Source of the DNA: Patescibacteria group bacterium
GTDB lineage: Bacteria; Patescibacteriota; Patescibacteriia; 2-12-FULL-60-25
Reading direction: 5' to 3'
Assembly: GCA_028688515.1 (NCBI GenBank)
Contig: JAQTXZ010000001.1
Coordinates: forward strand, 868,001-932,000
DNA length: 64,000 nucleotides
The position numbers and the translations under genes are program-made. Below, in pieces: positions 34,305-45,509 of this stretch. Position 1 is the first letter of the stretch. Each line of letters starts with the position of its first letter. Below the pieces are notes generated by a model. That model searched no databases. It was not told the origin of the DNA and saw nothing but the letters and a program-made list of their open reading frames with translations.

Positions 34305-34376
34305 CTTGCCAAGCTCGTTAAATTGTCTTAATATATGCCCGTCGGATAAAACATAGGTGTTGGGCGAGTGGCGGAA
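34305..34376 (+). repeat. Left direct repeat of the DGR island (tRNA-Leu promoter and 5' end)
   Basis: 72 bp matching 36755-36826 at 65 positions with no gaps. It spans the tRNA promoter and the first 15 nt of the tRNA. Exactly 2450 bp separate the two copies. Confidence 0.85.
34306..34334 (+). promoter_or_regulatory. tRNA-Leu promoter
   Basis: TTGCCA, 17-bp spacer, TAATAT. The right-hand duplicate of this promoter (36756-36784) is also intact. Confidence 0.7.
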
Positions 34377-34448
34377 CTGGTAGACGCACAGGACTCAAAA
34401 TCCTGCGGCCGCAAGGTCATGAGGGTTCGACCCCCTCCCCGCCCACCA
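34362..34448 (+). tRNA. tRNA-Leu (anticodon CAA)
   Basis: 87 nt with a long variable arm (GCGGCCGCAAGGTC region). The anticodon loop CTCAAAA lies between CAGGA and TCCTG; GGTTCGACC T-loop; encoded CCA. One A-C mismatch in the acceptor stem. Confidence 0.93.
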
Positions 34449-34483: not shown

Positions 34484-34936
34484 CTACGTATCATCTGTAT
34501 TGAAGTTTAGTATTTTAACGATAACAACCAACAGAGAGCGGTCGTGCGACAAGAAAACAAAGTCATCTGCATAACGGACATAATACTTCCTTCGTAGATC
34601 ATGCTTCACGAACTGATCAAACTCGTTCATGTAGATGTTGGCAAAAAGTTGAGAAGTGAGGTTGCCGAGCGGGATCCCTTTTCCTACCCTTGTCTCAAAA
34701 CTCCTGATAACATTTTCAAGCAGGATTAGCAAGCGTGGATTTGTGGTGTGACTATGCAAAATACCGATCAAGATGTCATGGTCTATGCTCGCAAAAAACT
34801 TTCGAATATCACATTTCAAAACCCAACAGGTTCGTGAATTATTTCGGCTGACTTTTCTTGCGATGCTCTCTTGTCATGCCTCACACAAATTTTCCATGGA
34901 CGAGACTTCTTCAAACGAAACAGTACATAATTTCAT
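34484..34936 (-). pseudogene. DGR-type reverse transcriptase remnant
   Basis: On the minus strand, about 115 codons encode SRNNSRTCWVLKCDIRKFF, SIDHDIL, GIPLGNLTSQLFANIY and YVRYADDFVFL. These are RT motifs 2-5, including the catalytic YADD. PLGNLTSQ fits the (I/V/L)GxxxSQ form of motif 4 that marks DGR RTs. Upstream the frame has a TGA (34876-34874) after ...MENLCEA. The preceding SFEEVSSMENLCEA resembles an RT N-terminus, but motif 1 is absent. Downstream the protein stops right after SLLVVIVKIL, losing the thumb. About half of a normal RT is missing, so it should be inactive unless completed in trans. Confidence 0.85.
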
Positions 34937-34971: not shown

Positions 34972-35446
34972 ATGAGGATACCCCCCGCAATCAATCACAT
35001 CAAATTTTCCCGTCTTGCAAAAGGTGGTAGATGTTTACAAAATCTGGCATGCACACTACTCAAATTTTCCTCGCCTCTCTAAATTTGCGCTCGGTGCGAA
35101 GATCGACTCGCTATTCACTGACGTAATCGAGCTGATTTTTCTTGCCGGCTACGCCGGAGCTGATCAAAAATACACATTCGTCGTAAGAGCTTCTACGAAG
35201 CTAGATCTTCTCAAATTTTTCATGCAGGCTGCGTGGGAAATGCGCTGCATCGACCAGAAAAAATATGCGGCACTCACCACTCCTCTGAATGAGATCGGTA
35301 AAGATATCGGCAGTTGGCAAAAATACCTTCAAACAAAACAACCCCATCCAAAGGATAGGGGTTGTTTGAAAAAACTTGAAGAGATTTGCGCACGGCGAGG
35401 AAACGGTAGTTGTCGTTCCAGTCGTTGTCGATCCAGTTCAGGTTGA
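34972..35446 (+). CDS. avd: Avd-like accessory protein of the DGR (four-helix bundle)
   Basis: The core FPVLQKVVDVYKIWHAHY...LSKFALGAKIDSLFTDVIELI...KLDLLKFFMQAAWEM...LNEIGKDIGSWQKYL has the four amphipathic helices of Avd, the basic protein that binds the RT and template RNA. The family similarity begins upstream of the first usable start (TTG 35015). ATG 34972 is out of frame by one base at a C6 tract (34981-34986), so a frameshift or sequencing error there is likely. The domain ends near 35330, but the frame stays open through the template repeat to 35446. It is on the opposite strand from the RT and target, which is unusual. Confidence 0.75.
35336..35367. terminator. Strong hairpin next to the template repeat
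   Basis: AAACAACCCC pairs with GGGGTTGTTT, with ATCC/GGAT inside. On the minus strand it is followed by TGTTTTGTTT, so it can terminate the template RNA 20 nt past its 3' end. Confidence 0.75.
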
Positions 35447-35482
35447 GGTTTCGGCCGTTGTCATCGTTCCACAAATACGCGA
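35386..35482 (-). repeat. DGR template repeat (TR)
   Basis: 97 bp aligned without gaps to 35882-35978 (offset 496). There are 14 mismatches. Twelve are at TR adenines (plus-strand T at 35407, 35413, 35416, 35417, 35426, 35438, 35450, 35458, 35459, 35461, 35464 and 35468). Two non-adenine changes (35391, 35394) lie at the 3' end. Read as codons it would give an Asn-rich stretch (NDDNGRNLNLN), i.e. many AAC codons, the form that allows wide diversification. Confidence 0.95.
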
Positions 35483-35877
35483 ACCCTCCACGTTCGTCTC
35501 GGAGCCGAGAGGACCGTATCGAAAGCCATCTTGATCACCACCACTTGAATAATCTCGTGGTTGAATTTTATTTGGGGCGTTTAGCCCGCCAGCTTTCGAC
35601 ACCAAGTATCTTCAGTTTATGGACAAACCGACGCACGCTGCCGACCGGCGTACCGCCCGACATTTTGACAAACGGATCCGTCCAGATTTCGACCGCCTGC
35701 AACCGTAATCGCAATCTGTTTCGTCTACTATCCGAAGTGAATTATACAAAATAAAAGCGACACTGCCCAGTGTACGAGCATCCAAGTTGCGGATTTCGTA
35801 CACCGGACAGGGTCCAGAGCAAATGGCCCAAGTGTCCCAGAGCCTTTTTAAGGGCAGAGTGACCGAGGGTCCAAGTA
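35483..35877. other. Spacer between TR and target gene
   Basis: No complete gene. Similarity to the target gene continues about 30 bp past the TR (LGSETNV versus LGSGTDV) but is shifted by a 10-nt gap. A minus-strand TATAAT (35746-35741) could start the template RNA. A stem CCGGTGTACGA / TCGTACACTGG (about 35769-35809) lies downstream of the target stop. A ~55-codon open stretch ending in ...GSVRRFVHKLKILGVES at about 35570 may be a remnant gene. Confidence 0.5.
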
Positions 35878-36453
35878 CTACTTGCGGACAGCGAGGAAAC
35901 GGCAGTTGCCGAGCCAGTCGTCGTCGATCCAGTGCAGGTTGAGGTGTCGGCCGAGGCCACCGTACCACAAATACGCGACGCGGCGGCGACCCCGCACGTC
36001 CGTACCGGAGCCGAGAGCGACGATCGGGTGCTTCCGCTGCTCGTCGGGGTACTTCTCGTCGAAACCGAGGAGCTCCTCGTAGAGCGCGGGCCGGAGTCGC
36101 TTGCGGTCAAACTCGGCGAGCACCTCGTCGGTCGACGCGTAGCGGTCCATGTGGACGTACTCGAAGGCGACCTCGCGGTTCTCCTTGGAGACGGTCTTGC
36201 AGCGCTCGATCGGATCGAAGCGCGTGGCTTGGTAGTCGGGGTTTACGTAGGCCGGGAACCGGCGCTTCAACTCCTCTAACTCGGGCTGGAGGTAGACGAC
36301 CGGAGCCGAGAACGCCGTGCTGCCGCCGGCCGTGGCCAGACGGTAGATGGCCACGAAAGGATACACCTTCTCGCGGACCACACCTATCATCGCGCTCACG
36401 AAATCAATGAAGGATTCCGCGCCCTCGATCTCGGAAACATTTCGCTTCGCCAT
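35878..36453 (-). CDS. DGR target protein (variable lectin-fold C-terminus)
   Basis: The 191-residue protein starts MAKRNVSEIEGAESFI with a GAGGTG site. The N-terminal 130 residues are not recognised. The C-terminus, VALGSGTDVRGRRRVAYLWYGGLG...CRFLAVRK, has the YLWYG and FLAVRK strands typical of C-type-lectin (formylglycine-enzyme-like) DGR targets. The variable repeat forms the last 32 codons and stops 1 codon past it. No signal peptide is visible, so a role inside the cell or export by an unknown route must be considered. Confidence 0.88.
   Translation of the reverse strand: MAKRNVSEIEGAESFIDFVSAMIGVVREKVYPFVAIYRLATAGGSTAFSAPVVYLQPELEELKRRFPAYVNPDYQATRFDPIERCKTVSKENREVAFEYVHMDRYASTDEVLAEFDRKRLRPALYEELLGFDEKYPDEQRKHPIVALGSGTDVRGRRRVAYLWYGGLGRHLNLHWIDDDWLGNCRFLAVRK
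35882..35978 (-). repeat. DGR variable repeat (VR)
   Basis: Counterpart of the TR. Every mismatch within the core corresponds to an adenine in the TR (to G five times, C four times, T three times). The two 3' non-adenine mismatches fit the IMH/IMH* boundary difference of known DGRs. Confidence 0.95.
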
Positions 36454-36616: not shown

Positions 36617-36645
36617 AAGATATCACAAAAAAGCCCTTTTGTCAA
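36617..36645 (-). promoter_or_regulatory. Sigma-70 promoter of the DGR target gene
   Basis: TTGACA (36645-36640), 17-bp spacer, TATCTT (36622-36617). Leader of about 155 nt; no gene seen in 36454-36754. Confidence 0.75.
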
Positions 36646-36826: not shown

Positions 36827-36884
36827 AGTGTGTTTTATCTTGATTGAATAAAGTATTGATCCATGTTGCACAATAACCGCATAA

Positions 36885-36980
36885 AAACCTGGTCAGGTTT
36901 TATCAAAAACGCCCGTTAAATTAACCGATAGGCGTTGGGAATTTTTGCATTCCATCCACCTATCGGGTGGGTTTTTTATT
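36885..36980 (+). promoter_or_regulatory. Structured leader, candidate riboswitch or attenuator of yhhQ
   Basis: Hairpins in order: AAAACC-tggtca-GGTTTT, AACGCC...GGCGTT (36908-36936), and a terminator CCACC-tatcg-GGTGG-TTTTTT (36956-36977). CCGATAGG (36925-36932) is fully complementary to CCTATCGG (36959-36966), so an antiterminator can form that excludes both later stems. This is the layout of a transcriptional on/off switch. I could not match it to a known preQ1 class. Confidence 0.6.
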
Positions 36981-37000
36981 TTATTCATTTAATTAAAACT

Positions 37001-37654
37001 ATGATTCAAATGTCTGAAAAATCTCTAAAAAAATTACTGATCGCACTTGCGGTCTATTTAACATCGCTGTTTGCGGCCAATACGCTCGGCCTTAAAATCA
37101 TGCCATTCATCTTTGGTTCTCATCTTTCCGTGGGCGTATTTTCTTTTCCCGTGGTCTTTCTGATGACCGACGTTATCGGCGAAACGTACGGTAAACGTGT
37201 GGCCAAACTTTTTGTTTTGGCAGGTTTTATCAGCACGGCTTTATTCATCTTGTACTCTTTCCTATCACTTGCCATGCCATGGTCATCCGACGGTGAATGG
37301 GCCAGGCAGGGCTATAATCAAATCTTTGGCATCTCGACGCGTATCGCGGTTGCTTCGCTTACGGCCTTTATCATTGCCGAATATCAAGACGTTATTGCAT
37401 TTTTCTTTTTCCGCGACAAACTGGGTACAAAAAACTTTTGGCTGCGTTCCAATCTCTCCAATCTCTGGTCGCAGCTGCTTGACACCGTCATCTTTATGAC
37501 GATCGCATTTGCCGGAATATATCCGACGCGAGTTCTAATCAGCATCATCATCACTTGGTGGCTGTATAAAGTCGTCATGGGCCTGCTCTACACGCCGCTC
37601 TCGTATATTGGCCTGCGCCTACTTCGTCAAAAACCTGACTTAACTCAAAACTAA
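37001..37654 (+). CDS. yhhQ: Queuosine precursor transporter, YhhQ (VUT) family
   Basis: The 217-residue protein has about six membrane helices and the family helix PVVFLMTDVIGETYGKRVAK, followed by NLWSQLLDTVIF. YhhQ proteins import queuine-type precursors (preQ0/preQ1) for tRNA modification. No queuosine synthesis gene is visible here, so the cell may salvage the base. The long structured leader upstream fits regulation by such a ligand. CofE-like gene follows 6 bp downstream, so they form an operon. Starts at ATG 37001, or 37010. Confidence 0.88.
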   Translation: MIQMSEKSLKKLLIALAVYLTSLFAANTLGLKIMPFIFGSHLSVGVFSFPVVFLMTDVIGETYGKRVAKLFVLAGFISTALFILYSFLSLAMPWSSDGEWARQGYNQIFGISTRIAVASLTAFIIAEYQDVIAFFFFRDKLGTKNFWLRSNLSNLWSQLLDTVIFMTIAFAGIYPTRVLISIIITWWLYKVVMGLLYTPLSYIGLRLLRQKPDLTQN

Positions 37655-44018: not shown

Positions 44019-44711
44019 CTAGAGTAGAAAAGCATTCGGCGTGACGAGGTTGGGCGGCTGAGCGTCTGCCGGGAAGGGTTGGAAGTGTATTGCTTCACCG
44101 GGCGCATATGCCACGCCAAGAATCGTCTCGTTGGTAACATTTGAAGTTCTGAGAAACAAGCGATCGCCCGTTTCGGGAGAGGCAAAGTTAGCCTGGCATC
44201 CGTCGCCATCAAAGCCATCCTCACGCAAGGCGATAGATCGAGCTAGAAGATAGACAAGATGAACGGCGCTCGGCAGGGATGAGAATATACCGCTGCTGCC
44301 GTTCGAAAAGTTCTCATAAGGCAAAATACCGTGAGACCAAGCAATCCATGCTCCGTGAGCGGTAGCGCTCAAGCCGAGCAAATACGGGCCGATCTCTGCG
44401 GGGAGCATCAGACTGATTCTGCGCTTGGCAAAGAACGGAAAAAGACCGGCAAACAGGTCTACTCCCTTAGGGCACCAGCACAGTTGGCGAGCGCCGGTTT
44501 GAATCTCTCTAAAGAGCCTTGCAGAACCCGCGTCCACCGAAAACCGCGGCGCTCTCATGGCGGGCATATGAAGGTGTCGCCTGAGCATATCGTACGACTG
44601 CTGTTGAGTTTCCCAGTGTTCCCGAGTGAACTTCAACAAATTGCATACAGGCGTCGGAACTTCGTCCGACGCAAAAGTTTCTGCTTCCGCTGTGCTTCTT
44701 ACATCTGGCAC
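44019..44711 (-). CDS. Unknown protein, paralogue of 44787-45509
   Basis: The 230-residue protein starts at GTG 44711 (MPDVRSTAEAETFASD) behind AAGGAGG. Shared with the neighbour: a THE/RDHW helix early on, CWCPKGVDLFAGLFPFF, SAVHLVYLLARSI, RTSNVTNETILGVAYAPG and a C-terminal LVTPNAFLL. There is no signal peptide. The C-W-C-P motif is the most striking conserved feature. I do not recognise the family. Confidence 0.7.
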   Translation of the reverse strand: MPDVRSTAEAETFASDEVPTPVCNLLKFTREHWETQQQSYDMLRRHLHMPAMRAPRFSVDAGSARLFREIQTGARQLCWCPKGVDLFAGLFPFFAKRRISLMLPAEIGPYLLGLSATAHGAWIAWSHGILPYENFSNGSSGIFSSLPSAVHLVYLLARSIALREDGFDGDGCQANFASPETGDRLFLRTSNVTNETILGVAYAPGEAIHFQPFPADAQPPNLVTPNAFLL

Positions 44712-44786: not shown

Positions 44787-45509
44787 TCACACCAGGATAA
44801 AGGCATCCATGGTTTTGAGATCGGGGGCAGAACGCGTCCGGAACGTGCGCAAGATGAGTCGTCTGCCGGGAAGATAGGCCGCAGCGACGATCACGTCGTT
44901 CGTTGGACGAGTGGAAGTGCGAAAGAACGTCAGTGACCGCTCGTCCGCGCTCGAGATGAGTTTGAGCGCAGAGCTGTCTTCGGTCTCGATGAGCCAAGCG
45001 ATGAGATACGCCATCTGCACAGCGTTAGGCAAAGGAATCGCGAGCTGCACGCCGCTACTTGGCCGAGGGTAGTGTCCTCGTTCAAAATCATTGCGGTAGT
45101 CAGCCTCGCGGTTGTAGCAATGTGCGCGATAAGCGATCCACACATCGGATTCGCAGCGTCTGATCTTTGGGTCATCAACCATCGACTGCTCGTACTCTAT
45201 GGCAATGCCCTGGACATCGAAGTACGGGTACAGATCCGTGAAGAGATTGATTCCCGGCGGACACCAGCAGACCCTGCGGTTATCGCGGAATACGCTCTGC
45301 ATAAACCTTCCGGCACTCTGCGGGACAGAGTAATCGCATGGCATTCGACCGGCAGCTCCGATTCTGGCAAAGAACGCACTATACTCCCTGGCCAGATTCC
45401 GCCAGTGATCACGCAAAACGTCCTTAAGACCGATACACAACGGCGTTGTTTCTGATTCGTCGACGACTCTCAGCGCGTCAACATTTGATTTCGGACTTGG
45501 CAGCGGCAT
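44787..45509 (-). CDS. Unknown protein, paralogue of 44019-44711
   Basis: The 240-residue protein starts MPLPSPKSNVDALRVVD behind AAGGAGG. Matching motifs are CWCPPGINLFTDLYPYF, NAVQMAYLIAWLI, RTSTRPTNDVIVAAAYLPG and LKTMDAFILV. A TATAAT box (minus strand, about 45546-45541) gives a short leader. The pair arose by tandem duplication with strong divergence (roughly a third identical by eye), suggesting separate but related roles. Confidence 0.7.
   Translation of the reverse strand: MPLPSPKSNVDALRVVDESETTPLCIGLKDVLRDHWRNLAREYSAFFARIGAAGRMPCDYSVPQSAGRFMQSVFRDNRRVCWCPPGINLFTDLYPYFDVQGIAIEYEQSMVDDPKIRRCESDVWIAYRAHCYNREADYRNDFERGHYPRPSSGVQLAIPLPNAVQMAYLIAWLIETEDSSALKLISSADERSLTFFRTSTRPTNDVIVAAAYLPGRRLILRTFRTRSAPDLKTMDAFILV

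Follow-up and report, generated by a model that had tools for sequence, protein, structure and literature searches.

Mechanistic knowledge of diversity-generating retroelements (DGRs) comes mostly from Bordetella phage BPP-1, whose target protein has a C-type-lectin fold. The BPP-1 locus (NC_005357) reads avd, template repeat (TR) and reverse transcriptase (RT) gene brt, all on a single strand. The spacer 3' of the TR folds and recruits the RT-Avd complex, with an adenine within this spacer priming the cDNA, and an inverted repeat stands directly behind the variable repeat (VR) (PMC12875486), a structured trailing RNA being likewise spoken of in PMC8867640. The passages on DGR clade 2 in Roux et al. 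2021 (PMC8144416) describe this clade as restricted to Patescibacteria/CPR and as cellular rather than phage-borne, and in these passages we found no mention of a leader RNA or of an antisense bAvd gene. Inactivated DGRs are an already described kind, Schillinger et al. 2012 having reported cassettes with a broken RT beside an intact, adenine-mutated TR/VR pair, and having given SQ as a DGR mark in RT motif 4 (PMC3521204).

Here, we present a DGR cassette identified in a 64,000-nucleotide stretch of DNA (hereafter the window) from a Patescibacteria genome related to Candidatus Uhrbacteria (1.29 Mb, 4 contigs, 99.2% complete). This cassette shares with BPP-1 an adenine-specific rewriting from TR to VR, a DGR RT, an Avd and a target gene ending in the VR, but differs by its broken RT, by a bAvd gene lying antisense between TR and RT, by a conserved structure located 5' rather than 3' of the TR, and by promoter- and terminator-like signals of its own for the putative TR-RNA. 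In retrons, the msr-msd ncRNA also carries its structured part 5' of the template part, a likeness that is topological only, with no sign of 2'-5' branched priming or of a retron-type RT in the window system. With clade 2, as portrayed in the passages mentioned above, the cassette has in common the host phylum and a cellular setting, the likeness being drawn on these traits rather than on tree placement. Compared with the inactivated DGRs of Schillinger et al., it shows two deletions plus a stop where they have a single lesion, and its TR is damaged too; unlike them, it can be set against an empty site as well as a homologous cassette that is intact, providing a well-bracketed case of DGR death. 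We consider it probable that this cassette is a DGR remnant beside a tRNA-Leu gene, that its RT was recently lost, and that it worked via a TR-RNA scaffolded by its leader. The features concerned are as follows (positions in the window):

34305..34376, plus strand: left copy of a 72-bp direct repeat, covering the tRNA upstream region and the tRNA 5' end
34362..34448, plus strand: tRNA-Leu(CAA), adjoining the cassette; site empty in the congener G001
34484..34934, minus strand: RT remnant, with an N-terminal stub, a TGA stop, ~100 codons missing, a palm (LGNLTSQ, YADD) and no C-terminal part
35015..35353, plus strand: bAvd core (PF22296), antisense to TR and RT
35342..35360, minus strand: terminator-like hairpin 3' of the TR, putative end of the TR-RNA; similar hairpin in relatives
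35386..35512, minus strand: TR, made of 97 bp (35386-35482), a 10-bp deletion point, then ~30 bp of further homology
35516..35734, minus strand: structured leader RNA directly 5' of the TR (P1 35690-35723, P2 35620-35684, P3 35516-35602)
35741..35769, minus strand: sigma-70-like promoter directly before the leader (TGGGCA-17-TATAAT, consensus match only), putatively that of the TR-RNA
35878..36453, minus strand: target gene, 191 aa from its ATG, with the VR at its 3' end and a C-type-lectin-like predicted fold
35882..36017, minus strand: VR (136 bp, end approximate), 35882-35978 being the part originally noted
36617..36645, minus strand: promoter-like site ahead of the target gene (TTGACA-17-TATCTT, with an extended TG), conserved in sequence in the intact relative L041
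36755..36826, plus strand: right copy of the 72-bp direct repeat, 90% identical, without a tRNA body after it

Template and variable repeats and the target gene

The TR (35386-35482) and the VR (35882-35978) align on the minus strand over 97 bp, gap-free, at an offset of 496 bp and with 14 mismatches, a pair claimed in the preliminary description and recovered independently by a repeat search. Its reading of the substitutions was likewise borne out, as 12 of the 14 mismatches fall at TR adenines (A>G 5, A>C 4, A>T 3), of which the TR has 27 (hypergeometric p = 1.6e-6), and no enrichment was detected at other bases or in other directions. The remaining two, at non-A positions 89 and 92 of 97, are indeed close to the 3' end of the repeat, the location expected for putative IMH/IMH* sequences. 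The variable residues correspond to the usual TR Asn/Asp/Tyr codons (TR AYLWNDDNGRNLNLNWIDNDWNDNYRFLAVR, VR AYLWYGGLGRHLNLHWIDDDWLGNCRFLAVR). A search of the whole genome with the TR returned the TR and the VR only, ruling out additional VRs of this TR elsewhere in the genome.

The proposed extent of 97 bp holds for this alignment but not for the repeat as a whole, which continues to about 36017 in the VR and to about 35512 in the TR. Alignment to L041, an intact homologous cassette from another genus of the same family (G029, contig 88), revealed a frame-breaking deletion of 10 bp after 35482 in the window TR, absent from both the window VR and the L041 TR. The retention in the VR of bases missing from the TR suggests that the VR was last written before the TR deletion occurred. 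Of the 29 mismatches between the window VR and the L041 TR, 20 fall at adenines of that TR (p = 4e-8), and in the own TR/VR pair of L041, homologous over ~140 bp, 20 of 23 do so (141 bp compared).

As previously claimed, the target gene ends in the VR, which closes its 191-aa frame. The target is predicted to be lectin-like, its AlphaFold2 model being confident over residues 44-191 and its best PDB matches being nearly all C-type lectin domains, with modest scores (Foldseek E at least 0.07, Z at most 7.6). Homologues of this domain were also observed in RT-less genomes, in 12 of 57 relatives, including the complete genome G010 (L046), where the target domain occurs in tandem and the copies show no adenine bias.

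A broken reverse transcriptase

The genome contains a single RVT_1 match, located inside the window, with an in-frame TGA and an end at profile position 173 of 205. A second RT sought across the 99.2%-complete genome was not found and was ruled out on this basis. The census covered the 4-contig draft, so that an RT lying beyond the assembled 99%, or an intact copy carried by other cells of the population, would have escaped it. Relative to the 339-aa RT of L041, the N-terminal stub reads MENLCEA, followed by a TGA at the tryptophan codon of L041; ~100 codons including motifs 1-2 are deleted, and ~100 C-terminal residues, about a third of the protein, are also gone. The palm remnant retains IPLGNLTSQ and YADD, typical of DGR-type RT sequences, and its closest relatives are RTs from TR/VR cassettes. 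Its low pN, against a high to saturated pS, suggests that the RT gene was under selection until recently, so that its death looks recent. The bAvd gene matches Pfam PF22296 (46 bits for a cut-off of 40); compared with L041, its usual ATG has fallen out of frame and it no longer has its stop codon, the frame continuing to 35446, and its function is uncertain.

Judged from its sequence, this feature is a diversity-generating retroelement, as the TR/VR pair, the RT remnant, the bAvd gene and the target ending in the VR, with its predicted lectin-like fold, all indicate. The DGR identity given in the preliminary description therefore stands, but the working state that it implied is very unlikely, owing to the broken RT and the TR deletion. 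A functional DGR being defined by an intact RT gene in the genome, and the only one found here being broken, we classified the cassette as a DGR remnant, and the broken RT together with the TR deletion lead us to expect little adenine-directed VR variation in population reads.

Genomic site and mosaic history of the cassette

The cassette occupies ~2.4 kb directly after the tRNA-Leu gene and is bounded by the 72-bp repeat, which spans the tRNA upstream region and the first ~15 nt of the tRNA. The congener G001 has an empty site, with proS, tRNA-Leu(CAA) and yhhQ arranged as in the window but lacking an intervening DGR, and the congeners G002, G003 and G006 carry proS and tRNA-Leu(CAA) nearby, with no RT in their genomes. 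A lineage-specific insertion is the economical reading, a loss of the DGR in the congeners being possible instead. A tRNA-type site-specific integration fits as the cause of the 72-bp repeat only if the right tRNA body was later lost.

Divergence from L041, in which bAvd is also antisense, is uneven along the cassette. The TR and leader are 5-8% different and the constant part of the target 11% (pS 0.17), whereas pS reaches 0.87 in bAvd and 0.75 in the RT, near saturation. This contrast suggests separate histories for the target-leader-TR and RT-bAvd parts, with modules recombining between DGR cassettes.

A structured leader RNA upstream of the template repeat

The preliminary description overlooked a structured RNA between the VR and the TR. 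This leader of ~215 nt lies on the TR strand and folds into three parts, P1, P2 and P3. Among five cassettes, the 226 bp upstream of the TR are 81-95% identical in every pair, mostly higher than the RT, bAvd and target. The three-part structure emerged from the alignment of ten leader copies, some with extra hairpins inserted at loops, and these ten sequences display compensatory changes in 29 of 60 pairs, with 96% of cells paired compared with 32-45% in slid versions; none of 500 shuffles reached any of the measures.

P3 is a three-way junction, and ~3 nt separate the end of its closing helix from the TR (35516 vs 35512). Across 48 copies aligned by fitting to a covariance model of this domain (R1), pairing holds in 95% of cells and drops to 30-51% in slid versions, and 24 of 27 pairs show double changes. 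P3 was recovered again when alignment and folding were unguided, at a mean pairwise identity of 59%, with 138 G-U for 21 A-C cells, an excess that argues for a structure on the TR strand. For P1 and P2, an unguided alignment of 28 copies supported 20 of 22 pairs, with a covariation score of 0.90 compared with 0.32 when shuffled and at most 0.27 when slid. The window leader remains intact (126 bits with R1) although the RT is dead, which could reflect a very recent death or another use.

Searches of the window stretch and 12 relatives against Rfam (E 0.5 and 0.1) gave no match but tRNA, ruling out a known RNA from that collection. The frame running from the leader into the TR is open in some relatives, contains stops in others and matched no target gene; given these stops and the strong covariation, a coding nature of the leader was set aside. 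In the literature searched, which gave partial coverage, we found no description of such a leader RNA, and an earlier account of the RNA or of the avd orientation may exist.

Four promoter-like sites were found for 0.9 expected, all being consensus matches only, and relatives possess a TATAAT-like box and a similar hairpin. From the promoter-like site before the leader to the terminator-like hairpin, both consensus matches only, the predicted TR-RNA would be ~400 nt long. This hairpin stands ~25 nt after the TR, in the interval to the RT that also holds the antisense bAvd.

Distribution of the leader across Patescibacteria

A search with R1, the covariance model of the leader 3' domain (P3), over 380 sampled Patescibacteria genomes yielded 77 hits in 64 genomes, 59 of which belong to the 134 RT-positive ones (Fisher p 1e-25). 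At least 53 of the 77 hits are followed on their own strand, after 539-788 nt, by an RT palm, the others having mostly no listed RT match on their contig. Among 28 fetched hits, 24 are accompanied by an adenine-biased TR/VR beginning 0-13 nt before the hit end. At the inspected loci, the TR and VR stand 424-577 bp apart, and bAvd lies antisense to the RT wherever both genes are present (24/24). The leader was not found by R1 at the relatives' RT loci L008, L009, L010, L016 and L019, not all of which are necessarily of DGR type, nor at 8 phage DGR-type RT loci, including BPP-1. Searches of viral contigs by bAvd and by two exact patterns returned none, and an occurrence of bAvd or the leader in viral contigs was rejected within the reach of these searches.

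With the leader covariance model, TRs can be located directly, even in cassettes that are broken or lack an RT. Two loci, L165 (G240:C22) and L168 (G202:C4), hold a leader, a TR and an adenine-biased VR with no RT or Avd within several kb, the genome RT being located elsewhere; such trios fit either cassettes served in trans or decayed ones. In G311, a second leader-TR-bAvd copy (L166) lies ~6 kb from the RT-bearing cassette, its TR being 68/70 identical. Further decayed DGRs occur at L172 (G336) and L174 (G420), where the leader, the TR and an adenine-mutated VR are kept and the RT is a fragment. Finally, at L171 (G338) and L173 (G354) the leader RNA stands by itself, with neither TR/VR nor RT detected in its vicinity.

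Proposed mechanism and alternative explanations

We propose that a DGR cassette inserted beside tRNA-Leu, that adenine-mutagenic retrohoming then rewrote the 3' end of the lectin-like target gene, and that the RT was recently lost, in which case the VR would be a frozen copy of the last rewriting. In the working cassette, a TR-RNA of ~400 nt would have been transcribed from a promoter of its own, closely following the target gene, with its first ~215 nt folding into P1, P2 and P3 and probably docking the RT-Avd complex. The TR would have been copied 3' to 5' until a presumed stop at the P3 closing helix abutting the TR, and the adenine-mutagenised cDNA would have replaced the VR. The constancy of the leader while TRs differ, its near-fixed distance to the TR and its co-occurrence with the RT are best read as those of an RT-Avd docking scaffold, and the position of the P3 helix against the TR would suit a cDNA stop.

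A DGR still diversifying its VR with its own RT, Avd and TR is very unlikely here. The clean adenine-specific TR/VR pair, the open target frame and the intact leader and promoter-like sites would all suit it, but the RT contains a stop and is missing both motifs 1-2 and the thumb, the genome has no other RT, and the 10-bp TR deletion absent from the VR would probably make any new retrohoming shift the target frame; we rejected a live DGR on the broken RT and the damaged TR. Also quite unlikely is that the cassette's own RT is dead while another RT, brought by a plasmid, a virus or a neighbouring strain and missing from the assembly, acts in trans on the leader-TR. Such an action would agree with the intact window leader and with the RT-less trios of genomes having an RT elsewhere (G240:C22, G202:C4), but these trios are equally explained as decayed cassettes, the 99.2%-complete genome in 4 contigs has no other RT, the TR deletion was never copied into the VR, and viral contigs lack bAvd relatives.

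The structure between the VR and the TR might alternatively belong to the 3' untranslated part of the target mRNA, or be a VR-marking cruciform as in BPP-1, instead of a part of the TR-RNA. It follows the VR on the same strand, which speaks for this, as does the BPP-1 inverted repeat right behind the VR (PMC12875486). We nevertheless regard it as unlikely, since the distance of the structure to the TR is near constant (0-13 nt) when the TR and VR can be anywhere between 424 and 577 bp apart, a promoter-like site lies between the structure and the target, the second leader-TR copy of G311 is 6 kb from the VR, and G-U pairs are numerous, which suits a folded RNA better than a DNA cruciform. An ordinary gene duplication with a chance base bias, for which nothing speaks beyond the sequence similarity itself, is refuted by the bias in the window (p = 1.6e-6) and by the same bias in all close relatives.

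Returning to the leader-scaffolded TR-RNA, a conserved RNA on the opposite side of the template from that of BPP-1 points to a different template recognition and bounding, phylum-wide. By extension, and as a tentative proposal that we hold at somewhat less than even confidence, the DGRs of Patescibacteria may use an undescribed class of TR-RNA, a free-standing ncRNA whose 5' P1-P2-P3 scaffold would recruit RT-Avd, bound the cDNA and replace the 3' spacer of BPP-1 type, with one RT serving several leader-TR units in trans and with TRs and targets swappable as modules. The RT-less trios and the second copy in G311 would fit such action in trans, and decay would fit too.

Other observations in the window

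Beyond the cassette, a conserved leader with a terminator-like hairpin (36870-36980), also found in G001, precedes a YhhQ/Vut_1-type transporter gene (36935-37651). It had no Rfam match at E 0.5 and is possibly an undescribed or divergent queuosine-precursor riboswitch. Further along, two adjacent minus-strand genes of 230-240 aa (44019-44711 and 44787-45509) resemble divergent paralogues, with a CWCPxGxxLF motif in common.
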